DNA from: an uncultured Lachnospiraceae bacterium
GTDB taxonomy: Bacteria > Bacillota > Clostridia > Lachnospirales > Lachnospiraceae
DNA length: 64,000 bases
Assembly: GCA_902786365.1 (NCBI GenBank)
Contig: CADACD010000002.1
Coordinates: forward strand, 90,707 to 154,706
Reading direction: 5' to 3'
The translations under genes and the position numbers were made by a program. The notes under the pieces are model-generated. The model saw only the letters and a program-made list of their open reading frames with translations, did not search any database and was not told the DNA's origin. Shown here piece by piece: positions 22,161 to 48,041 of this stretch. Within the stretch, counting starts at the first letter, position 1. Each line of letters begins with the position of its first letter.

Positions 22161-22345
22161 TCCCAAAATGCGAAGCATTTTTTTAAATGGATTATCCGTC
22201 ATGCCGCCGTAGCAAAATAAGATGTACATTGCATCTTCGACGAGAAGCGGAGGGGGCAATACCTCTTGGTAGGATAATCCCAAAATGCGAAGCATTTTTT
22301 TAAAATGGATTATCCGTCATGCCGCCGTAGCAAAATAAGATGTAC
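22151..22345 (+). repeat. Direct repeat of a 77-base palindromic unit
   Basis: Two nearly identical copies, 22151-22227 and 22268-22345, 117 bases apart and differing by one inserted A. Each unit contains GGATAATCC and GGATTATCC, which pair with each other, and inside them the terminator-like AAATGC-GAA-GCATTTTTTT. The 3' half is GCCGCCGTAGCAAAATAAG and continues to GATGTAC. The 40-base spacer has its own hairpin (ATTGC..GCAAT). The first copy supplies the stop codon of the ATPase gene, and the second ends just before the next permease gene. It may be a small mobile or REP-like element, or a duplicated terminator. Confidence 0.8.
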
Positions 22346-30511: not shown

Positions 30512-30555
30512 AGGAACAAAGGCGTTTCTCCAATGGGTGGAGAGCGTCTTTTTTT
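30512..30555 (+). promoter_or_regulatory. ANTAR-type antiterminator hairpin overlapping a terminator (glnA leader)
   Basis: A hairpin with stem AGGAAC / GTTTCT and hexaloop AAAGGC (30512-30529) has A at loop position 1 and G at position 4, the loop rule known for RNAs bound by ANTAR proteins. Its loop and 3' arm overlap the 5' arm of a terminator: GGCGTTTCTCCA (30521-30532) pairs with TGGAGAGCGTC, followed by TTTTTTT to 30555. The two structures exclude each other. An ANTAR regulator is encoded directly downstream of glnA. Only one hexaloop hairpin is visible, while well-studied ANTAR targets have two. Confidence 0.7.
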
Positions 30556-30601
30556 AGCAGAATGCTAATTTATTATGTATTATGTAATGGAGGAAAGGCT
30601 G

Positions 30602-31930
30602 ATGAAGTATACGAAGCAGGAAATTCTCGATATGATTGAAGAAGAGGATGTTGAGTTTATAAGACTGCAATTTACAGATATGTTTGGAAGCTTGAAAAAT
30701 GTTGCTATCACTGTAAGCCAATTAGAAAAAGCATTAGATAACAAGTGTATGTTTGATGGCTCTGCGATAGACGGCTTCACAAGGATAGAAGAGTCGGATA
30801 TGTATCTTTATCCGGATTTATCAACATTTACTATTTTTCCATGGAGACCACAGCAGGGAAAGGTTGCAAGGTTTATATGTGATATTCACAGGCCGGACGG
30901 AACGCCGTTTGAAGGAGATTCGAGGTATATTCTCAAAAAAGTTTTAAAAGAAGCAGAAGACATGGGATATACCTTTAATGTGGGACCGGAATGTGAATTT
31001 TTCCTTTTTCATGCAGATGATTATGGAAATCCGACAACAGTTACACATGAAAAAGCAGGATATTTTGATTTGGGACCAATTGATTTGGGAGAAAATGCAA
31101 GAAGAGATATGGTTTTAAACTTGGAAGAAATGGGATTTGAGATCTTAAAGTCTCACCATGAAATTGCACCAGGACAGCATGAAATAGATTTTAAATATGA
31201 TGATGCACTTACAACTGCTGATAATATTATGACATTTAAGCTGACAATTAAGTCAATCGCAAAAAGACATGGACTTCATGCGACATTTATGCCTAAACCA
31301 AAATCAGGAATTAATGGCTCAGGAATGCATATTAACCTGTCACTTCACAAAGATGGAAAAAATATATTCTGGGATGAGTCAGATAAAAACGGGCTTAGTA
31401 AAGAAGCATACAGTTTTATAGCTGGAATTATGAAGCATATCAAAGGTATGACAATCGTTACAAACCCATTAGTAAATTCGTATAAGAGACTTGTGCCGGG
31501 ATATGATGCTCCGGTCTATATAGCATGGTCAACAACAAGTAAGAGTCCTTTGATTAGAATTCCGTCTTCACAAGGTGAAAATACAAAGATTGAACTTCGG
31601 TGCCCTGATCCGGCGGCAAATCCGTATATGGTACTTGCTCTGTGCCTGGCAGCAGGTCTTGATGGAATAAAAAATCAGCTTGTGCCACCGGAAAATGTTG
31701 ATGTGAATATTTTTGAGATGACAGAAGCAAAGAGAATAGAGGCAAAGATAGACCATCTTCCAGAGAATTTATGTGATGCTATAGAAAAATTTGAGGAGGA
31801 TGAATTTGTAAGGAATGTGCTTGGAGAACATATTTCTAAAAACTATATCAGTGCAAAGAAAAAAGAGTGGCAGGAATACAGAACACAGGTCACAAATTGG
31901 GAAATAGAACAATATTTGCATAAATTTTAG
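30602..31930 (+). CDS. glnA: Glutamine synthetase, type I
   Basis: A 442-residue GlnA that makes glutamine from glutamate, ammonia and ATP. Motifs: the N-terminal beta-grasp with [26 protein letters not shown], the metal-binding [25 protein letters not shown], the Gly/His motif [34 protein letters not shown] and [14 protein letters not shown]. The length fits the short GSI-alpha type of Firmicutes without an adenylylation loop. The ATG at 30602 has GGAGG; an in-frame ATG 27 bases earlier is not used. Expression is probably set by the leader terminator and the ANTAR protein encoded downstream. Confidence 0.95.
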
Positions 31931-31964: not shown

Positions 31965-32510
31965 ATGATAGAGATTTTAGTTGTATTTCCAAAACAGGAG
32001 GATGCCAGAGGAATCAAGAATCTTCTTATGCGAAATGGATATAATGTTACTGCTGTGTGTACGTCCGGAGCTCAGGCTATGTCAATCATAGATGATATGG
32101 ATTATGGTATAGTAGTATGTGGTTATAAAATCAATGATATGTTATATTCAGAGTTGTTTGAAAATATGCCGGATACTGTTCAGATGCTTCTCATTGCATC
32201 AAGAGTCAAACTGGAAAATGGTGTCTGTGAAGGGGTTGTAAGTGTGGAGATGCCATTGAAAGCATATGATTTGATTAATACTCTGGAAATGATGACACAA
32301 GCTCTCAGAAGAATTAAGAAAAAAGGCAAAGATAAACCTAAGGAGAGAAACGTAGCGCAAAAAGCAATTATTGATGAGGCAAAAAAGATATTGATGGAAA
32401 GCAGGAATATGACAGAAGAAGAGGCGCACAGGTATATCCAGAAAAACAGTATGGACAGTGGAAACAGTATGGTAGAAACCGCCAGAATGATACTGCATAT
32501 TATGCACTAG
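31965..32510 (+). CDS. ANTAR-domain response regulator (RNA antiterminator)
   Basis: A 181-residue protein. The N-terminal part (about 1-115) is a receiver-like domain, MIEILVVFPKQEDARGIKN, but it lacks the standard acidic pair and a clear phosphoacceptor Asp (the region reads YGIVVCGYKIND), so phosphorylation is doubtful. The C-terminal ANTAR domain (about 120-181) shows AQKAIIDEAKKILMESRNMT, EEAHRYIQKNSMDSGNSMV and ETARMIL. ANTAR proteins bind paired hairpins in nascent RNA and prevent termination; NitR of clostridia has this role beside glnA. GGAGGTGATAG precedes the start, 34 bases after glnA, so it is co-transcribed and should regulate its own operon. Confidence 0.88.
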   Translation: MIEILVVFPKQEDARGIKNLLMRNGYNVTAVCTSGAQAMSIIDDMDYGIVVCGYKINDMLYSELFENMPDTVQMLLIASRVKLENGVCEGVVSVEMPLKAYDLINTLEMMTQALRRIKKKGKDKPKERNVAQKAIIDEAKKILMESRNMTEEEAHRYIQKNSMDSGNSMVETARMILHIMH

Positions 32511-36618: not shown

Positions 36619-37503
36619 ATGAAAAAATCATCAGTAAGAACAGTTATTTGTATACTTGCGAGTATGCTGCTTTCGATTTTTGTGTCTGTACTTGCTATTA
36701 TGCTTTCCGTTGAGCTTGGTTTTGCAACGAACAATTCGCTTGCTATAGCACTTGATGAAGTGAAATATTATGAAAGATTATATGAAGATTTTATGGACAA
36801 GTGTGAATCAGTTGTCATTCCTGATGGATTGGGAGCAGAAGTGTTTGATGGAGTATTTACCGTTGAACAATTGAAAAGCGATGGAAATGCATATTTGAAT
36901 GCACAATTAAATAGTACAGTTTACAAAATAAATCTTGATTCTTATAAAACAAAACTTACAATCAATATTAAGGAATATGTAGAGAAGAACCAACTTGTTG
37001 CGGATGGAAATGAAGATGAAATCATAGAGGCTATCACAGATAATATTATGGATTATTATATCAAGATGATAAGTATACCATATGCATCTACGATAGGTTC
37101 AATATTTAGAACAATTTCAGCATATTTTCCATATGTGTTTTTTGCGATGCTGATATTTGCAATTATTACCATATGGATTATCAATAAGCAGAATCCACAT
37201 AAGAAAAATAGAGTTTTCAGATATTTGGCATATGCAATAATGTCAGGAGCAATCACAACATTGGTTCCTCCGATTTACTGTATTTATACAAATTTTTATA
37301 CAAAGATACAGGTTTATCCGGGGTATTTGTATGATTTTATTGTGAGATATATAGAAAATGGAATTAGAATTATGCTGATTATCGGAATCATTCTTTTTAT
37401 AGTTGCGATAGCGATGATAGCACTCAGCACTTATATCAAATATAAATATATACATGTAAAGCATCATCACCATCATCATTCAAGTGATGATAGTGAAGCA
37501 TAA
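36619..37503 (+). CDS. Multi-pass membrane protein of the sortase locus, with natural His6 tail
   Basis: A 294-residue membrane protein of unknown family. The first helix (about 8-32, TVICILASMLLSIFVSVLAI) is followed by an extracytoplasmic helical region of about 130 residues (VKYYERLYEDFMDKCESVV..) and then four helices: YVFFAMLIFAIITIWII, YLAYAIMSGAITTLV, a short one, and MLIIGIILFIVAIAMIA. The C-terminus is VKHHHHHHSSDDSEA. AGAAAGG precedes the start at about twelve bases. It follows the sortase by 108 bases and probably belongs to the same transcript, perhaps as an assembly partner. Confidence 0.65.
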   Translation: MKKSSVRTVICILASMLLSIFVSVLAIMLSVELGFATNNSLAIALDEVKYYERLYEDFMDKCESVVIPDGLGAEVFDGVFTVEQLKSDGNAYLNAQLNSTVYKINLDSYKTKLTINIKEYVEKNQLVADGNEDEIIEAITDNIMDYYIKMISIPYASTIGSIFRTISAYFPYVFFAMLIFAIITIWIINKQNPHKKNRVFRYLAYAIMSGAITTLVPPIYCIYTNFYTKIQVYPGYLYDFIVRYIENGIRIMLIIGIILFIVAIAMIALSTYIKYKYIHVKHHHHHHSSDDSEA

Positions 37504-37518
37504 AAATTGATAAAATAA

Positions 37519-37547
37519 TTGACAATAATAAAAAAGTGTTGTATTAT
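37519..37547 (+). promoter_or_regulatory. Promoter of aspS-gatCAB
   Basis: TTGACA (37519-37524) and TATTAT (37542-37547), 17-base spacer. Transcription should begin near 37554, the first base of the hairpin that follows, as at glnA. Confidence 0.7.
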
Positions 37548-37553
37548 AATCCA

Positions 37554-37598
37554 AGAACAAAGGCGTTCTAACTTATTAGGTTAGTGCGTCTTTTTTTT
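37554..37598 (+). promoter_or_regulatory. ANTAR-type antiterminator hairpin overlapping a terminator (aspS leader)
   Basis: A hairpin AGAAC / GTTCT with hexaloop AAAGGC (37554-37569), the same loop as in the glnA leader, with A1 and G4. It overlaps the 5' arm of a terminator: GGCGTTCTAAC (37562-37572) pairs with GTTAGTGCGTC (ending 37590), followed by eight T. The distance from the -10 box to the hairpin matches that of glnA within one base. This makes the aspS operon a likely target of the same ANTAR protein. Confidence 0.68.
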
Positions 37599-37614
37599 GT
37601 TTGTCATTATTATA

Positions 37615-37955
37615 TATTAAATGCTATGAAAGAGACTGGAACAAATGATACCTGACAGGGAAGTGATGCCATAGACTGAGAGCATCATTCAGTGGAGCCT
37701 TGAACCGGAACACTCTGGAGCAGATTTATTGAAAGACAGTTCTATAGGAATTGCTATATGTAATTAAGCAATTGAAATATAGTTGTTTGAGTTTATATAT
37801 TGAAAAAAATGTTGATTAGATAAATACGTTGCACGCGTTAAGTGATGAAGAGTGGAAGATATGATGTATATTTTCTGAATGTGGGTGGTACCACGGATTA
37901 TGTTAATTCGTCCCAAGATACAATTTGATTAGTATCTTGGGATATTTTTATTTGA
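37615..37955 (+). promoter_or_regulatory. T-box riboswitch of aspS-gatCAB
   Basis: The T-box core GTGGGTGGTACCACGG lies at 37881-37896, followed by a terminator with arms TCCCAAGATA (37911-37920) and TATCTTGGGA (37933-37942) and TATTTTTATTT. Stem I covers about 37625-37720, with a distal hairpin GATGC..GCATC around ACTGAGAGC. T-boxes read an uncharged tRNA through a specifier codon and then its free CCA end. On the 3' side of stem I the bases GAAC occur twice (37702-37705 and 37708-37711); each contains GAA (Glu) and AAC (Asn). No GAC (Asp) codon is present there. I cannot fix the specifier without folding. Confidence 0.9.
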
Positions 37956-38028: not shown

Positions 38029-39780
38029 ATGAAACAGGAAAGTATTTACAGAGACTTCACACTTGATAAATTGAGTGAGTCAGATATAGGAAAAGAGATA
38101 AAAATAGCAGGATGGATAGAGAATATTCGTGATCATGGAGGGGTATCGTTTATAGATTTGAGAGACATGTATGGTGTTGTACAGGTCGTACTTAGAGATA
38201 CAAGTTTGCTAGATGGTCTTGTAAAGGAAGATTGTGTATCAGTAAAAGGTCTTGTGGAGAAGCGTGATGAGGAAACATATAATCCTAAGATACCTTCAGG
38301 TACAATAGAGGTAGAGGCGCATGCAATAGAGATACTCGGAAAAGTATACAGTATGCTTCCGTTTGAAATTCAGACATCAAAGGAAATCAGAGAGGATTTG
38401 AGATTAAAATACAGATATCTTGACCTTAGAAACCAGAAAGTAAAAAATAATATGATTTTCCGTTCTAATGTGATATCCTTTTTAAGACAGAAAATGTCAG
38501 AAATGGGATTTTTGGAAATTCAGACACCGATTCTCTGCGCATCTTCTCCAGAGGGAGCAAGAGATTACATTGTTCCATCAAGAAAATACAAAGGAAAGTT
38601 TTACGCACTGCCACAGGCACCACAGCAGTATAAACAGCTTTTGATGGTATCAGGATTTGATAAATATTTTCAGATTGCACCTTGCTTCAGAGATGAGGAT
38701 GCGAGAGCAGACCGTTCACCGGGAGAATTTTATCAGCTTGATTTTGAGATGAGTTTTGCAACACAGGAAGATGTGTTTGAAGTTGGTGAAGAGGTGTTAA
38801 GCGCAACATTTGAAAAATTTGCACCAAAAGGTTATCAGGTGACGAAAGCACCGTATCCGGTTATCAGTTACAAACAGGCAATGCTGGAATTTGGAACTGA
38901 TAAACCAGACCTTAGAAATCCTTTAAGAATTATAGATGTTACAGAATTTTTTAGCAGATGTACTTTTAAGCCGTTTCATAACAAGACGGTAAGAGCGATA
39001 AAAGTTCATGCAGCAATGTCAAAAGGTTTCCATGAAAAACTGCTTTCATTTGCTACGTCCATCGGAATGGGAGGACTTGGTTATCTTGAGGTGATGGAGG
39101 ATTTGTCATACAAAGGACCGATTGATAAATTTATTCCTGATGAGATGAAGAGTGAGCTTATGGAGCTTGCAAAATTAGAAGTCGGTGATACCATCTTTTT
39201 CATTGCAGACAGAGAAGCAAGGGCAAATTATTATGCCGGATGTATTAGAACAGAACTTGGTCAGAAACTTGATTTGATAGAAAAAAATGCTTATCGATTC
39301 TGCTATATCAATGATTTCCCGATGTTTGAGTATGATGAGGAAGAAAAGAAGATTGGATTTACGCATAACCCATTTTCAATGCCACAGGGTGGACTGGAAG
39401 CATTAAATACCAAAAATCCTCTTGATATTCTTGCGTATCAGTATGATATTGTATGTAACGGTGTTGAGTTATCATCAGGTGCGGTGCGAAATCATGATAT
39501 GGAGATTATGGAGAAAGCATTTGAGATAGCAGGCTACAGTAAGGAGGAGTTAAAAAGCAAGTTTGGAGCATTGTATAATGCATTCCAGTATGGTGCACCG
39601 CCTCATGCAGGAATGGCTCCGGGTGTTGACAGGATGATAATGCTTCTCAAAAATGAGGAAAATATAAGGGAAGTAATCCCATTCCCGATGAGTGCAACAG
39701 CACAGGATTTGATGTGTGGAGCACCGGGAGAGGTAACAGAACATCAGTTAAGGGAAGTGCATATCAAGGTAAGGGATTAA
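38029..39780 (+). CDS. aspS: Aspartyl-tRNA synthetase (likely non-discriminating)
   Basis: A 583-residue class IIb synthetase of the bacterial type. An OB-fold anticodon domain (about 1-110) has IAGWIENIRDHGGVSFIDLR. The catalytic core has motif 2 FRDEDARADRSPGEFYQLD and motif 3 GMAPGVDRMIMLL, with the bacterial GAD insertion domain between them (about 280-410). In an operon with gatCAB it probably charges both tRNA-Asp and tRNA-Asn with aspartate; GatCAB then converts Asp-tRNA-Asn to Asn-tRNA-Asn. The ATG at 38029 has GGAGGGAAAG upstream; the frame opens 63 bases earlier without a site. Two leader switches precede it. Confidence 0.95.
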   Translation: MKQESIYRDFTLDKLSESDIGKEIKIAGWIENIRDHGGVSFIDLRDMYGVVQVVLRDTSLLDGLVKEDCVSVKGLVEKRDEETYNPKIPSGTIEVEAHAIEILGKVYSMLPFEIQTSKEIREDLRLKYRYLDLRNQKVKNNMIFRSNVISFLRQKMSEMGFLEIQTPILCASSPEGARDYIVPSRKYKGKFYALPQAPQQYKQLLMVSGFDKYFQIAPCFRDEDARADRSPGEFYQLDFEMSFATQEDVFEVGEEVLSATFEKFAPKGYQVTKAPYPVISYKQAMLEFGTDKPDLRNPLRIIDVTEFFSRCTFKPFHNKTVRAIKVHAAMSKGFHEKLLSFATSIGMGGLGYLEVMEDLSYKGPIDKFIPDEMKSELMELAKLEVGDTIFFIADREARANYYAGCIRTELGQKLDLIEKNAYRFCYINDFPMFEYDEEEKKIGFTHNPFSMPQGGLEALNTKNPLDILAYQYDIVCNGVELSSGAVRNHDMEIMEKAFEIAGYSKEELKSKFGALYNAFQYGAPPHAGMAPGVDRMIMLLKNEENIREVIPFPMSATAQDLMCGAPGEVTEHQLREVHIKVRD

Positions 39781-39855
39781 AACAGGTTAAAAATCGGAAT
39801 TTGGATAAATTTGAGTAAAGTTATGATAAGTGTATATGGAAATGGAGGTAAAATT

Positions 39856-40149
39856 ATGGCAAACGTAATATCAGATGAGACAATTGAGTATGTCGGAATA
39901 CTTGCAAAATTAGAGCTGAATGATGAAGAAAAAGAAAAAGCAAAATTAGATATGGCAAGTATGTTAGATTATATTGATAAACTGAATGAACTTGATACAA
40001 CAGATGTGGAGCCAATGAGCCACGTTTTCCCGGTTAATAATGTGTTTAGAGAGGATATTGTGACAAATGACGATGACAGGGAGAACATATTAAAAAATGC
40101 TCCTGAGGAAAAAAATGGAATGTTCAATGTTCCGAAAACATTTGATTAA
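39856..40149 (+). CDS. gatC: Asp/Glu-tRNA amidotransferase subunit C
   Basis: A 97-residue GatC, the small subunit that wraps around GatA and links it to GatB. It begins [20 protein letters not shown] and contains [23 protein letters not shown] and the closing [16 protein letters not shown], all standard for GatC. The ATG at 39856 has GGAGG; an in-frame TTG 45 bases earlier is not used. It follows aspS by 75 bases and precedes gatA by 26. Confidence 0.94.
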
Positions 40150-40175
40150 TTTTTTGACAGGAGGGAAGTTTTAAG

Positions 40176-41633
40176 ATGGATATTTTAGATTATACAGCCG
40201 TTGAACTATCAGATAAAATTAAAAAAAAGGAAGTATCTGTAAAAGAGACTGTGATGGCTGTTTTTGACAGAATAGATAAAATGGAAAGTGAACTAAATTG
40301 TTACGTTGAACTAGACAGATGTAGGGCACTAGAGAGCGCACAAAAGGTGCAGGAAAAGATTGATAATGGAGAGATTACTGGAGAACTTGCCGGTGTTCCG
40401 GTTGCCATTAAAGATAATATATGTACAAAAGGAATACCTACTACATGTTCATCAAAAATATTAAAAAATTTCGTTCCGACATTTTCGGCACAGGCGGTTA
40501 TTAATCTGGAAAATGCGGGAGCAGTCATTATCGGCAAGACAAACATGGATGAGTTTGCCATGGGATCTACAACAGAGACTTCTTGTTATGGTGCAACGAA
40601 AAATCCATGGAATACAGAGCATGTTCCGGGCGGTTCATCAGGCGGTTCAGCAGCAGCAGTAGCAGCGAAAGAATGTTATTATGCATTAGGTTCTGATACG
40701 GGTGGTTCGATAAGACAGCCGGCTGGTTATTGTGGTGTAGTAGGAATGAAGCCGACATATTCGACTGTTTCAAGATATGGATTGATTGCATATGGTTCGT
40801 CACTTGACCAGATTGGACCACTTTGCAAAGATGTTACAGACTGTGCGACAATTCTTGAAGTTATTTCAACACATGATCCTAAGGACTCTACCTCTGTAAA
40901 GAGAGAAGATACAGATTTTACATCTGCACTTATAGATGATGTAAAGGGAATGAAAATAGGTATTCCAAAGGATTATTTTGGAGAAGGAACTGATAAGGAG
41001 GTAAAGGAGGCTGTACTGCGTGCGGCAGAGGTTTTGAAAGAAAAAGGAGCCGTTGTGGAAGAATTTGATTTGAGTCTTGTAGAATATGCGATACCTGCTT
41101 ACTATACGATTGCAGCAGCAGAGGCAAGTTCCAATCTTGAGAGATTTGATGGAATTAAGTATGGTTACAGAACAGAAGAATACGAAGGACTTCACAATAT
41201 GTATAAAAAGACACGTTCGGAAGGCTTTGGAGCCGAGGTAAAAAGGAGAATTATGCTTGGTTCCTTTGTGTTAAGTTCGGGATATTATGATGCCTATTAT
41301 TTGAAGGCGTTAAAGGTAAAAGCATTAATTAAAAAAGCGTTTGATGATGCATTTTCAAAATATGATGTGATACTTGGACCTGTGGCACCAACACCGGCAC
41401 CAAAGCTTGGTGAAAGCCTTGTTGATCCGATAAAAATGTATCAGGGAGATATTGATACAATTTCAGTCAATCTTGCAGGACTTCCGGGAATCAGTCTTCC
41501 TTGTGGATTTAGTAGCAATGGACTTCCGATAGGATTACAGCTGATTGGTGACTGCTTTAAGGAAAAAAATATCATAAGGGCAGCATATGCGTATGAGCAG
41601 GCAAGAGGAAAATTTGTAAAGGAGGACAGATAA
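40176..41633 (+). CDS. gatA: Asp/Glu-tRNA amidotransferase subunit A (glutaminase)
   Basis: A 485-residue amidase-signature enzyme that frees ammonia from glutamine for tRNA amidation. The Ser-cisSer-Lys triad is visible: Lys in GVPVAIKDNI (about 79), the cis-Ser in HVPGGSSGGSAAAVA (about 155) and the nucleophile Ser in SDTGGSIRQPAGYCG (about 178). Later motifs include MLGSFVLSSGYYDAYYLKA and LPGISLPCGF. AGGAGGG lies upstream. It ends one base before the gatB start codon. The need for glutamine gives a reason for control linked to nitrogen supply. Confidence 0.96.
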   Translation: MDILDYTAVELSDKIKKKEVSVKETVMAVFDRIDKMESELNCYVELDRCRALESAQKVQEKIDNGEITGELAGVPVAIKDNICTKGIPTTCSSKILKNFVPTFSAQAVINLENAGAVIIGKTNMDEFAMGSTTETSCYGATKNPWNTEHVPGGSSGGSAAAVAAKECYYALGSDTGGSIRQPAGYCGVVGMKPTYSTVSRYGLIAYGSSLDQIGPLCKDVTDCATILEVISTHDPKDSTSVKREDTDFTSALIDDVKGMKIGIPKDYFGEGTDKEVKEAVLRAAEVLKEKGAVVEEFDLSLVEYAIPAYYTIAAAEASSNLERFDGIKYGYRTEEYEGLHNMYKKTRSEGFGAEVKRRIMLGSFVLSSGYYDAYYLKALKVKALIKKAFDDAFSKYDVILGPVAPTPAPKLGESLVDPIKMYQGDIDTISVNLAGLPGISLPCGFSSNGLPIGLQLIGDCFKEKNIIRAAYAYEQARGKFVKEDR

Positions 41634-41634
41634 C

Positions 41635-43068
41635 ATGACAAGTTATGAAACCGTGATTGGACTGGAAGTGCATGTGGAACTGGCTACAAAAACAAAAATA
41701 TTCTGCGGATGTTCTACAGCATTCGGTGCAGAGCCGAACGCTCATACATGTCCTGTTTGTACCGGAATGCCGGGAAGTCTTCCGGTGTTAAATAAGCAGG
41801 TTGTTGAGTATGCAATGGCAGTTGGATTAGCGACAAATTGTGATATCACCAGGTATTCAAAATTTGACAGAAAGAATTATTTTTATCCTGATAATCCGCA
41901 GAATTATCAGATATCACAGCTGTATCTACCAATCTGCAGGAATGGATATGTGGAAATAGAAGATAAGGATGGAAATCTGAAAAAAATCAGGATTCATGAA
42001 ATTCATATGGAGGAGGATGCTGGAAAATTAATTCATGACGAATGGGATGACTGTTCTTATGTCGATTATAATCGTTCAGGGGTTCCTTTGATTGAAATTG
42101 TGTCAGAGCCTGATATGCGTTCGGCAGAGGAGGTCATTAGTTATCTGGAAAAATTAAGACTGATTATCCAGTATCTTGGGGCTTCTGACTGTAAGTTGAA
42201 TGAGGGTTCGATGAGAGCTGATGTGAATTTATCAGTTCGCAAAGCAGGAACTGATAAGTTTGGTACAAGAACAGAGATGAAGAATCTTAATTCATTTAAA
42301 GCAATTGCAAGAGCAATTGAAAATGAAAGAGAAAGACAGATAGAGCTGATTGAAGATGGAAAACAAGTCGTTCAGGAGACAAGAAGATGGGATGATAACA
42401 AGGAATATTCTTATCCTATGAGATCAAAAGAAGATGCGATGGATTACAGATATTTCCCGGAACCGGATTTGGTGCCGATTGTTATCAGTGATGAGTGGAT
42501 TGAGAAAATAAAGAAGAATCAGCCGGAATTTCGTGATGAGAAAAAGAAGAGGTATATCAGTGAATTTGAAATTCCTGAATATGACGCAGGTATTATCACA
42601 CAAACAAAGCATCTTGCTGATATATTTGAGGAAACAGTCAGTATTGGTGCAAATCCTAAGAAGGTAAGCAATTATCTGATGGGAGAGACAATGAGGCTGT
42701 TAAAGAGCAAGGAAATGGAACCGGAGGAAATAAAATTTTCACCCGAAAATCTTGCAAAGCTTATCAAACTGACAGATGACAACCTGATTAACAGCAGTGT
42801 GGCCAAGGAAGTTTTTGAAAAGGTATTTACAGATGATATTGACCCGGTTGAATACGTGGAGAAAAATGGGTTGAAACAGGATAATGACGAAGGGGGACTT
42901 ACAGAGATTATTAAGGAAGTAATTGAAAACAATCCACAGTCGGTTAATGATTATAAAAATGGTAAAGATAAGGCAATTGGATTTTTGGTCGGACAGACAA
43001 TGAAAGCGACAAAAGGAAAGGCAAATCCGGGAATCATCAATAAGATTTTAAAGGAATTGTTGGGATAG
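41635..43068 (+). CDS. gatB: Asp/Glu-tRNA amidotransferase subunit B
   Basis: A 477-residue GatB that phosphorylates the Asp or Glu on the mischarged tRNA and receives ammonia from GatA. It starts YETVIGLEVHVELATKTKIF and has the zinc site FCGCSTAFGAEPNAHTCPVC, then RKNYFYPDNPQNYQISQ and HMEEDAGKL. The tail/YqeY domain (about 330-477) ends GFLVGQTMKATKGKANPG. The ribosome binding site AAAGGAGG is inside the end of gatA. It is the last gene of the aspS operon. Confidence 0.96.
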   Translation: MTSYETVIGLEVHVELATKTKIFCGCSTAFGAEPNAHTCPVCTGMPGSLPVLNKQVVEYAMAVGLATNCDITRYSKFDRKNYFYPDNPQNYQISQLYLPICRNGYVEIEDKDGNLKKIRIHEIHMEEDAGKLIHDEWDDCSYVDYNRSGVPLIEIVSEPDMRSAEEVISYLEKLRLIIQYLGASDCKLNEGSMRADVNLSVRKAGTDKFGTRTEMKNLNSFKAIARAIENERERQIELIEDGKQVVQETRRWDDNKEYSYPMRSKEDAMDYRYFPEPDLVPIVISDEWIEKIKKNQPEFRDEKKKRYISEFEIPEYDAGIITQTKHLADIFEETVSIGANPKKVSNYLMGETMRLLKSKEMEPEEIKFSPENLAKLIKLTDDNLINSSVAKEVFEKVFTDDIDPVEYVEKNGLKQDNDEGGLTEIIKEVIENNPQSVNDYKNGKDKAIGFLVGQTMKATKGKANPGIINKILKELLG

Positions 43069-43344: not shown

Positions 43345-44805
43345 ATGAAAAATATTCATAAAATAAATGAAATTATGAAACTTGATAATCAGGATGATGC
43401 ACTGCATGAAGAGTGTGGTGTGTTTGGAATGTATGATTTTGATGGTAATAATGTGGCGTCGTCTATATATTATGGGCTTTTTGCATTACAGCACCGCGGA
43501 CAGGAAAGTTGCGGTATAGCAGTAAGTGATACTGAAGGACCAAAAGGTAAGGTGACAGTTCATAAGGATATGGGATTGGTCAATGAGGTGTTTTCACCGG
43601 ATATTCTTGACAGTCTTAAGGGAAATATAGGTGTCGGTCACACAAGATATTCGACAGCAGGGGCGAGTACCAGAGAAAATGCACAACCTCTTGTTTTAAA
43701 TTATGTAAAAGGTATATTGGGATTGGCACATAATGGCAATCTGATTAATGCACTTGAACTGAAGAAGGAATTAGAGTATACAGGAGCAATTTTCCAGACA
43801 ACGATTGATTCGGAAGTTGTTGCCTATCTGATTGCGAGAGCGAGAATTCAGTCGGCATCTGTTGAAGAAGCGGTAAAGATGACAGTTCAGAAGATTAAAG
43901 GTGCGTATTCATTGATTATCATGAGTCCGAGAAAATTGATTGGTGCGCGAGATCCGTTTGGATTTAAGCCGCTTTGTATCGGGAAACGTGACAATGCATA
44001 CATTCTTGCCTCTGAGACTTGCGCGCTTGATACGATAGGTGCAGAGTTTGTAAGAGATGTAAGACCTGGTGAGATAGTAACAATAACAGATGGACAGATA
44101 CTATCAGATACATCACTTTGTCTTCCGGTGGAGAAGGAAGCGAGATGTATTTTTGAATATATTTATTTTTCAAGACCTGACAGCCGGATAGATGGTGTAT
44201 CAGTGTATCAGTCAAGAATTCTGGCAGGTAAATTTTTAGCAATGGACCATCCAGTCGAGGCAGATGTTGTTGTTGGAGTGCCTGAGTCAGGAAATGCAGC
44301 AGCACTCGGATATTCATTACAATCCGGTATTCCGTATGGAACGGCATTCGTAAAGAACAGTTATGTTGGAAGGACATTTATCAAACCAAAACAAAGCAGC
44401 AGGGAGTCGAGTGTCCGTGTTAAGTTGAATGTTCTATCGGATGTAGTAAAGGGAAAGAGAGTTATCATGATTGATGATTCGATTGTGAGAGGTACTACAA
44501 GTGACAGGATTGTTGGGATGTTAAAAGAGGCAGGGGCGATAGAGGTTCATGTGAGAATCAGTTCTCCTCCGTTTATCAGTGAGTGCTATTTCGGGACAGA
44601 TGTACCGTCAAAAGAACAGTTGATTGCACATAACAGAACAGTAGAGGAGATAAGGCAGATTATCGGTGCAGATTCGCTTGGATATCTGGGAATTGATAGA
44701 CTTGGCGAAATGGTATCGGGACTGTCGATATGTACAGGCTGTTTTACGGGAAAATATCCTATGGAACCGCCTAAGGATGATATTCGCGGAGAATTTGAGA
44801 GTTGA
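43345..44805 (+). CDS. purF: Amidophosphoribosyltransferase PurF
   Basis: A 486-residue enzyme that makes phosphoribosylamine from PRPP and glutamine, the first step of purine synthesis. A propeptide of about 23 residues precedes the nucleophile Cys in HEECGVFGMYDF. The glutaminase site has LQHRGQESCGIAV, VGHTRYSTAG and LAHNGNLINA. The PRPP loop is VIMIDDSIVRGTTSDRIV. Iron-sulfur cysteines are in ARCIFEYIYFSRPDS, SECYFGTD and ICTGCFTGKYP, as in the Bacillus-type enzyme. AGGAGCTGC lies upstream. purB and a PurF paralogue follow. Confidence 0.96.
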   Translation: MKNIHKINEIMKLDNQDDALHEECGVFGMYDFDGNNVASSIYYGLFALQHRGQESCGIAVSDTEGPKGKVTVHKDMGLVNEVFSPDILDSLKGNIGVGHTRYSTAGASTRENAQPLVLNYVKGILGLAHNGNLINALELKKELEYTGAIFQTTIDSEVVAYLIARARIQSASVEEAVKMTVQKIKGAYSLIIMSPRKLIGARDPFGFKPLCIGKRDNAYILASETCALDTIGAEFVRDVRPGEIVTITDGQILSDTSLCLPVEKEARCIFEYIYFSRPDSRIDGVSVYQSRILAGKFLAMDHPVEADVVVGVPESGNAAALGYSLQSGIPYGTAFVKNSYVGRTFIKPKQSSRESSVRVKLNVLSDVVKGKRVIMIDDSIVRGTTSDRIVGMLKEAGAIEVHVRISSPPFISECYFGTDVPSKEQLIAHNRTVEEIRQIIGADSLGYLGIDRLGEMVSGLSICTGCFTGKYPMEPPKDDIRGEFES

Positions 44806-46631: not shown

Positions 46632-48041
46632 ATGGGTGGATTTTTTGGCGTTGCATCAAAAAATGATTGTGTATTTGATTTGTTTTTTGGAACAGATTAT
46701 CATTCACATTTAGGAACAAGACGTGCGGGAATGGCAGTGTATGGAAAGGAAGGTTTTGATAGAGCCATACACAATATAGAAAATGCCCCTTTTAGAACAA
46801 AATTTGAAAAAGATGTGAATACGATGAAAGGCAATTTGGGAATTGGATGTATTTCTGATTATGAACCACAGCCACTTATCGTTCGGTCGCATCATGGAAC
46901 TTTTGCAATCACTACAGTTGGAAAGATTAACAATGTAGATGAAATTGTAGGAGATATCTTTGCAAATGGAAATACACATTTCCTTGAAATGAGTGGTGGT
47001 GATATTAATGCAACAGAACTTGTTGCGGCGATTATCAACCAGAAGGATAATATCATCGACGGTATTAAATATGCGCAGGAAATCATAGATGGTTCCATGA
47101 CGATGCTTGTTCTTACGCAGAAAGGAATCTTTGCGGCGAGAGACAGACTTGGAAGGACCCCTGTGATTCTTGGCAAGAAAGATGATGGATATTGTGCGAC
47201 TTTTGAGTCGTTTGCATATTTGAATCTCGGATATGAGGATTACAGAGAATTAGGTCCGGGAGAGATTGTTGTGATGACTCCGGAGGAAGTAAGAACCGTT
47301 GGGGTTGCAGGAAAAGATATGAAGATTTGTACATTCCTGTGGATTTATTATGGTTATCCTTCATCAAGTTATGAAGGCGTGAGCGTGGAACAGATGAGAT
47401 ATAATTGTGGAGCAATGCTCGCAAAACGTGACAATGTGGAGGTTGATACTGTTGCAGGTGTGCCTGATTCAGGAACAGCACATGCCGTGGGATATGCCAA
47501 TGAGTCAGGAATACCATTTACAAGACCATTTATCAAATATACACCTACATGGCCACGTTCATTTATGCCGACAATCCAGAGTAAGAGAAATCTGATTGCG
47601 AAAATGAAATTGATTCCTGTCCATGATTTGATTAAGGATAAGAAGCTTCTTCTTATAGATGATTCTATCGTAAGAGGCACACAGCTTCGTGAGACAACGG
47701 AATTTTTATATAATAGTGGGGCAAAAGAGGTTCACATAAGACCGGCATGTCCACCCCTTGTATATGGATGTAAGTTTGTGAATTTCTCACGCTCATCATC
47801 AGAGATGGATTTGATTACAAGAAGAGTTATCAAAGATTTAGAGGGTGAAGATGCAAATGTTGAAAGTGTATTGAATGAATACACAAACCCTGAATCTGAC
47901 CGATATGAGAAGATGATAGAGGAGATAAGAAAGCAGCTTAATTTTACATCGCTCAGATACCACAGACTGGATGATATGATAGAGTCAGTTGGAATAGATA
48001 AATGTAAGCTTTGTACGTATTGCTGGGATGGAAGAGAGTAG
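46632..48041 (+). CDS. PurF paralogue lacking the glutaminase nucleophile
   Basis: A 469-residue homologue of amidophosphoribosyltransferase. Where glutaminases have Met-Cys-Gly at the N-terminus, this protein reads MGGFFGVAS, so the nucleophile Cys is absent. Other glutamine-site motifs are also lost: HTRYST is replaced by GCISDYEP and HNGN by TVGKINN. The transferase half is well kept: LLLIDDSIVRGTQLRE is a complete PRPP loop, and Cys residues at ICTFLWIYYGYP, YGCKF and KCKLCTYC match the iron-sulfur ligands. It may use free ammonia, another amine, or act as a regulator of the true PurF. It lies 68 bases after purB, in the same direction. Confidence 0.88.
   Translation: MGGFFGVASKNDCVFDLFFGTDYHSHLGTRRAGMAVYGKEGFDRAIHNIENAPFRTKFEKDVNTMKGNLGIGCISDYEPQPLIVRSHHGTFAITTVGKINNVDEIVGDIFANGNTHFLEMSGGDINATELVAAIINQKDNIIDGIKYAQEIIDGSMTMLVLTQKGIFAARDRLGRTPVILGKKDDGYCATFESFAYLNLGYEDYRELGPGEIVVMTPEEVRTVGVAGKDMKICTFLWIYYGYPSSSYEGVSVEQMRYNCGAMLAKRDNVEVDTVAGVPDSGTAHAVGYANESGIPFTRPFIKYTPTWPRSFMPTIQSKRNLIAKMKLIPVHDLIKDKKLLLIDDSIVRGTQLRETTEFLYNSGAKEVHIRPACPPLVYGCKFVNFSRSSSEMDLITRRVIKDLEGEDANVESVLNEYTNPESDRYEKMIEEIRKQLNFTSLRYHRLDDMIESVGIDKCKLCTYCWDGRE

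Follow-up and report, generated by a model that had tools for sequence, protein, structure and literature searches.

The window analysed in this study, a stretch of 64,000 nucleotides from an uncultured Lachnospiraceae bacterium, carries the aspS2 and glnA leaders and the genes that follow them on its forward strand. An operon of the order aspS2-gatC-gatA-gatB spans positions 38029–43068. Its first gene, aspS2 (38029–39780), encodes an aspartyl-tRNA synthetase (AspRS) of bacterial type and is the second such gene of the genome, followed by gatC (39811–40149; PF02686), gatA (40176–41633) and gatB (41635–43068), the last two being named from their position and their relatives. Upstream lies glnA (GSI; 30575–31930), which has a short leader element of its own (30512–30555). 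The gene of an ANTAR protein begins 34 bases after glnA (31965–32510; PF03861, 60.2 bits), and no second ANTAR protein was found in this genome. Shortly 3' of gatB, two PurF-like amidotransferase genes (43345–44805 and 46632–48041) flank, as judged by eye, a purB-like gene. Elsewhere in the window, two tandem GA-cis RNAs (RF02987; 22151–22341) that are alike in sequence stand directly 5' of an open reading frame at 22340.

The aspS2 leader begins with a match to the sigma-70 promoter, TTGACA-17-TATTAT (37519–37547), which agrees with the consensus at 11 of 12 positions. The promoter scan by itself proves little, since its 7 promoter-like matches in the region are near the expected number of 5.3. 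The RNA is predicted to start at about 37554, where a hexaloop hairpin begins, AGAAC-[AAAGGC]-GUUCU (37554–37569; −3.9 kcal/mol), which would thus form the first 16 bases of the RNA. Its loop carries A at position 1 and G at position 4 (A1/G4), and we regard it as a putative ANTAR-type site and as the antiterminator conformer. The alternative conformer is terminator 1 (37559–37598), an AAAGGCG...CGTCTTT hairpin (37559–37593) with a T8 tract (37591–37598), whose 5' arm uses most of the bases in the hexaloop hairpin, and the two structures are mutually exclusive. Terminator 1 has a predicted stability of −15.5 kcal/mol (z −5.75), and 0 of 200 shuffled sequences were equally stable. A hexaloop at the tip of the terminator hairpin was considered as well and rejected, as the tips are variable and do not fit A1/G4.

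According to the initial annotation, this leader repeats the arrangement in front of glnA, and it does: the glnA element combines the hairpin AGGAAC-[AAAGGC]-GUUUCU, thus the same hexaloop, with the same GGCG..GCGTC terminator. The distance from the −10 box to the hexaloop is 11 nt for aspS2 and 12 nt for glnA, within one base as claimed, while the eight T said to end the terminator are found in the aspS2 leader and only seven in that of glnA. Across the genome, an exact pattern of the element matched these two leaders alone, with 0 matches in the reversed control, and a covariance model recovered the same two sites in the window. Genome-wide, the model gave two further matches, one 5' of a gene for GSIII (52.3 bits), the other 5' of an ATP-grasp gene (36.3 bits). 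The latter copy (G000:C4:92501-92542, L219) has the loop GAAGGT, with G at position 1, and precedes a circularly permuted ATP-grasp gene; in another genus (L190) the element likewise precedes such a gene.

Only 18 bases separate terminator 1 from a T-box leader (37617–37918), and the claimed continuation into a T-box with its own terminator holds. Against RF00230 it scores 63.6 bits (E 2e-13) over the full length of the model (positions 1–219), and it is omitted by a default Rfam scan because the gathering score is 93. It carries the specifier AAC, the GGGTGGTACC motif and its own terminator 2 (37911–37949; −17.8 kcal/mol, z −4.93). The T-box motif TGGGTGGTACCACGG occupies positions 37882–37896, and the three marks of a T-box leader, namely a specifier fitting the operon, the motif GGUGGUACC and a terminator, are thus all present. 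The promoter scan found no promoter between the first hairpin and the T-box; one candidate, TTGAAA-18-TATATT at 37772, was rejected because it sits within the T-box.

The specifier (37709–37711, next base A) was calibrated against T-boxes found elsewhere in this genome (8 matches), with downstream genes named from their translations. At the expected place, proS reads CCA, tyrS UAC, pheS UUC and ileS AUC. Since the ileS leader (GTATCACTCCGGAGC) and the aspS2 leader (GGAACACTCTGGAGC) share an identical layout, we read the aspS2 specifier as AAC, for Asn. T-box leaders of AspRS genes elsewhere agree: among 75 leaders examined, 34 of the 35 that fit the specifier pattern read AAC, a count that excludes the 40 outside the pattern, and eight of these 40, inspected by eye, all read AAC too. 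In one leader (L126), a 7-pair hairpin with the loop AAAGGC lies within the T-box leader, just before the T-box motif and about 140 nt 5' of aspS2, perhaps by chance.

Given the AAC specifier, aspS2-gatCAB is an operon for Asn-tRNA. The same genome also encodes AsnRS, GlnRS and Asn_synthase proteins, for which reason we rejected the operon as the sole route to Asn-tRNA; rather, it represents a second, conditional route. T-box control of tRNA-dependent amidation is reportedly already known from Clostridium acetobutylicum. The reading as a second route would be in line with the title of the study on that species by Saad 2012.

To what extent the series is conserved was assessed in nine genomes of the genus (G000–G008). 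The element stands 5' of glnA in all eight genomes that have this glnA and 5' of GSIII in eight of nine, seven by pattern and G008 by model and eye (L060; AAGAC-[AAGGGC]-GUCUU, a weak model match of 17.7 bits that was read by eye). It also precedes the AspRS-gatCAB operon in 7/7 genomes where this operon was found (G000–G005 and G008); aspS2 was not found in G006 and G007. In G006, neither the ANTAR gene nor this glnA nor aspS2 was found, and no element precedes GSIII there. The ANTAR gene adjoins glnA in eight of the nine genomes, being split across two contig ends in G008. In G001 the operon begins with a non-orthologous AspRS of archaeal type (NCBIfam aspartate--tRNA(Asn) ligase, 573.9 bits, cut-off 353), followed by gatCAB, and its leader again consists of element and T-box, so that the series precedes two different types of AspRS. 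The Rfam T-box was detected in G005 (92.2 bits) and G001 (78.5 bits), both below the gathering score, and was not found in the AspRS leaders of G002, G003, G004 and G008. Consequently, the full series is present in three of seven operons. Relatives with a single gate exist in both forms: L091 has the T-box alone, and the four genus members just named have the hairpin alone. In G008 (L016 / L009), a GC-rich, repeat-like stretch 5' of aspS2 occupies the place of the T-box.

A near-consensus promoter lies 10–11 nt before the hexaloop in 6/7 AspRS operons, and none was found before the hairpin in the AspRS leader of G003. Taking glnA and AspRS leaders together, the −10 box is 10–13 nt from the hexaloop in 13/15 (16 nt for glnA of G007). 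GSIII leaders extend about 20–45 nt ahead of the hairpin (by eye), and because they start further upstream, a hairpin at +1 is not general. In several loci of the family the scan found no promoter. Some GSIII leaders, for example L050, L051, L052 and L054, show by eye an extra small hairpin immediately 5' of the hexaloop one; it is of the CAUAU..AUAUG type, and its loop is not A1/G4.

We aligned 22 elements of the genus (16 distinct; L060 is outside this set). Four of the five pairs in the hexaloop stem show two-sided changes, and its covariation of 0.425 compares with a shuffled mean of 0.279 (0/500 as high), while the competing terminator stem reaches 0.385 versus 0.207 (0/500 as high); related sequences can exceed such shuffles. 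Cells of the hexaloop stem are paired in 91.3%, as against at most 60% when the stem is slid. G4 is present in 22/22 loops and A1 in 21/22 (AAAGGC in the window); the glnA element of G007 and the fourth element of the window's genome have G at position 1. AC/GU closing pairs, which P1 of eutP shows too, occur in 19/22 elements, and the arms vary between GAAC/GUUC, GAAAC/GUUUC and CGC/GCG, with G-U pairs present. A terminator follows the hexaloop hairpin in 22/22 elements, in the same orientation. The initial observation of two antitermination elements in series before aspS-gatCAB is confirmed, and the comparison supports two regulated terminators in series. A first hairpin missing from relatives, named initially as a refuting result, is not what the genus shows: all seven AspRS-gatCAB operons found carry it.

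Outside the genus we compared 80 named aspS2 loci. A T-box was recognized by pattern in 72/80, L125 among the other eight having only 120 nt upstream, and no element model match was found within 1 kb upstream of aspS2 in any of the 80. Consequently, AspRS as a target of the element is confined to one clade. At one outside locus (L147), an AGTC-AAAGGC-GACT hairpin with a terminator, seen by eye and not matched by the model, precedes aspS2 without a T-box; it is possibly an independent gain.

A tree of GatA and GatB could be built for 44/87 loci, those with both proteins in reach; loci from beyond the genus received the label T-box as a default, though L121 has no T-box by pattern. G005, with both gates, groups with L091 (T-box only), and G000, also with both, groups with G008, next to G004, G003 and G002, all hairpin only. 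T-box-only loci surround the genus groups, and G001 (both gates) has no settled place. The simplest course is that the element was gained, once or more, before an old T-box leader and that one or the other was then lost. L091, where a similar promoter is joined directly to the T-box, represents the empty site. A candidate source of the element is the glnA leader, 7 kb from the aspS2 leader; glnA lies within the fetched stretch around aspS2 in 7/80 named loci.

The candidate regulator is the ANTAR protein encoded next to glnA, which combines a receiver-like part with an ANTAR domain. In the receiver-like part, Gly is aligned to the Asp that we take to be the phosphorylation site of response regulators; hence phosphorylation is probably not its switch. 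In order to learn how element and protein are distributed, 150 genera of Lachnospiraceae were surveyed with the element covariance model (E up to 0.01 plus stricter filters, run without a shuffled control). The model matched in 108 genera, and the ANTAR gene is present in 131. The element was found in 106/131 ANTAR-positive and in 2/19 ANTAR-negative genera (Fisher 2.7e-9, an optimistic value because genera are related); the two exceptions, G146 and G169, carry it, by eye, in leaders of GSIII and glnA. At least 21 of the 87 best element matches, that of the window included, lie 1.75–1.95 kb upstream of an ANTAR gene, a lower bound that covers these matches and the ANTAR rows entered for their genomes. 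A loose pattern matched 163/397 genomes, a count we discarded because the reversed control also matched in many, and the exact pattern gave 8 matches in 6/60 genomes, of which L003, L007 and L008 were rejected as elements, as they look like terminators in other settings.

Downstream of 30 element loci inspected, the glnA of the window among them, a glutamine synthetase follows in 22 (11 glnA, 11 GSIII). Four of the other eight were assigned a target, one each: asparagine synthetase (asnB), an ammonium transporter (amtB, 527 nt on), a circularly permuted ATP-grasp protein and a PPDK_N protein. The proposed link to glutamine synthetase is supported by comparison. The use of glutamine by GatCAB, put forward as its rationale, covers no more than part of the picture, given that elsewhere the element also precedes asparagine synthetase and an ammonium transporter.

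Taken together, we propose that an ANTAR antitermination switch acts in series with a tRNA-Asn T-box before aspS2-gatCAB, a reading to which we assign a probability of about three in four. At the first gate, two folds compete for the first ~45 nt of the RNA, the strong terminator and the small 5' A1/G4 hexaloop hairpin. The glnA-linked ANTAR protein, presumably active under nitrogen limitation, would bind the hexaloop as the RNA leaves the polymerase, and the 5' hairpin held in this way would prevent terminator 1. At the second gate, the AAC-specifier T-box would bind uncharged tRNA-Asn and prevent terminator 2. Only RNA past both gates would reach aspS2-gatCAB, whose products are predicted to make Asn-tRNA(Asn), the tRNA being charged with Asp that is then amidated. 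The need for both signals, as envisaged initially, would be the logic of such a series. The sequences and their comparison show the promoter match, both conformers of the first gate, the T-box, its specifier, the gene order, the conservation and the co-occurrence with ANTAR; that the ANTAR protein binds, that nitrogen is the signal, that the polymerase reads through, that the gates act as an AND and that AspS2 charges tRNA-Asn is inferred.

Several other explanations deserve attention. One might argue that the first hairpin is the terminator of the upstream gene and that the operon starts further down. That gene stops at 37503, and the hairpin, with its U8 tract, lies 56 nt past this stop codon; in G003, moreover, no promoter was found before it. 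However, the near-consensus promoter ahead of the hexaloop in 6/7 operons, the similar promoter of L091 that runs straight into the T-box and the lack of a promoter-like site between hairpin and T-box in the scan all speak for a start at the hairpin; a plain terminator would, in addition, call for neither conservation of a hexaloop nor covariation of its 5' stem. We consider this explanation very unlikely. Even less probable, to a degree that we would call remote, is that GAAC-N6-GTTC serves as a DNA operator, an inverted repeat at +1 whose RNA fold is incidental. Recognition of an RNA loop is favoured because the non-symmetric loop is conserved while the arms change, with G-U pairs among them, and in all 22 aligned elements a terminator comes after the hairpin, always with one orientation, although a dyad at the start site would suit an operator and operator arms would covary too.

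Whether the terminator is opened by the ANTAR protein is a separate matter. A regulated terminator might be opened by another RNA-binding protein or by a factor bound to RNA polymerase, and indeed the element has one hexaloop only, and two of 19 ANTAR-negative genera kept it. The A1/G4 hexaloop, the AC/GU closing pairs, the pairing of the glnA and ANTAR genes and the strong co-occurrence argue against such a factor, which we regard as unlikely. It is quite unlikely, too, that the site is a dual-hexaloop ANTAR target whose second hexaloop consists of the 3' arm of the terminator and the U tract (e.g., GGAAAG-AGCGCC-CUUUUU). A downstream A1/G4 hexaloop hairpin (at least 4 pairs, next 60 nt) is present in 13/49 leaders against 4.8 expected, among them 7/8 glnA leaders of the genus including that of the window, and in most of the 13 it is formed by the 3' arm and the U tract. 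This count used 27 of the 30 family loci, omitting L189 (a repeat of the window's glnA) and the loci L192 and L198, which are cut by contig ends. However, none of the seven AspRS leaders has such a hairpin of at least 4 pairs within the terminator, the sole match (G004) lying beyond it. In intrinsic termination, the decision falls while the U tract still belongs to the RNA-DNA hybrid. Because the hairpin needs this tract, we tentatively take the 3'-arm hexaloop as a by-product.

How does such a switch relate to described ANTAR targets? As described for EutV/eutP, NasR/nasF and AmiR/amiE (PMC3369931), an ANTAR target comprises two hexaloops with A1 and G4, a stem of at least 3 pairs and, in E. 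faecalis eut, a linker of 5–12 nt; eutP needs both hairpins, and its upstream hairpin P1, ahead of the terminator, is required in vivo. The window shares with these systems the A1/G4 hexaloop (here on a 5-pair stem), a hairpin that overlaps and excludes the terminator, nitrogen genes downstream and an ANTAR gene in the genome, and with P1 of eutP also the AC/GU closing pairs. It differs in having the terminator-overlapping hairpin only, without a separate upstream P1: a second A1/G4 hexaloop hairpin upstream (stems of at least 4 pairs) was found in 3/49 leaders against 3.8 expected. In the aspS2 and glnA leaders, moreover, the hexaloop hairpin is located at the predicted 5' end of the transcript, in contrast to described targets. 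The ANTAR link of the initial annotation is supported by comparison, but the target is not canonical. It agrees with the minimal ANTAR site as redefined by Walshe 2022, a short stem capped by a single A1/G4 hexaloop. In that study (PMC8934654), one ANTAR dimer contacts one hexaloop, both hexaloops are nevertheless needed in vivo in eutP, single-hexaloop sites are expected where the transcribing polymerase sets no time limit, and the importance of single-hexaloop motifs in living cells was left as a question. This expectation speaks against our reading, since the time limit of the polymerase applies to the leaders described here. For the question left open, the element leaders offer a natural and widespread single-hexaloop candidate (108/150 genera) with a built-in comparison in glnA.

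We lean slightly towards a wider reading, in which Lachnospiraceae possess a compact ANTAR switch for which a single hexaloop suffices and which, combined with a T-box, became an AND gate that later decayed in relatives. The shortest form would be the hairpin at +1, with no recruitment hairpin needed; one genus would have placed this switch before an existing tRNA-Asn T-box, and a nitrogen signal read by a protein together with a tRNA signal read by RNA would make a natural two-input AND gate. As relatives keep either gate alone, both the AND gate and its loss are directly testable.

Parts of the scheme have precedents. NitR, an ANTAR protein of Clostridium saccharobutylicum, induces GS/GOGAT genes by antitermination upon nitrogen limitation (PMC6316151), which resembles our system in placing an ANTAR protein on glutamine synthetase genes; the passage on NitR does not mention aspS2-gatCAB. 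The amidation genes of C. acetobutylicum (Saad 2012, 2013) reportedly have a T-box on the AspRS/GatCAB route to Asn-tRNA. A pairing of ANTAR and T-box was not found described in the open-licence literature (listings, abstracts and passages), and the word "ANTAR" has 0 occurrences in the main text of PMC12452182. The tandem T-boxes and the leaders with T-box and guanidine-type riboswitch covered there, as far as its passages go, likewise hold two regulated elements per leader. In those leaders RNA senses both inputs, whereas the aspS2 operon has two different antitermination inputs in series, one of which would be an RNA-binding protein.
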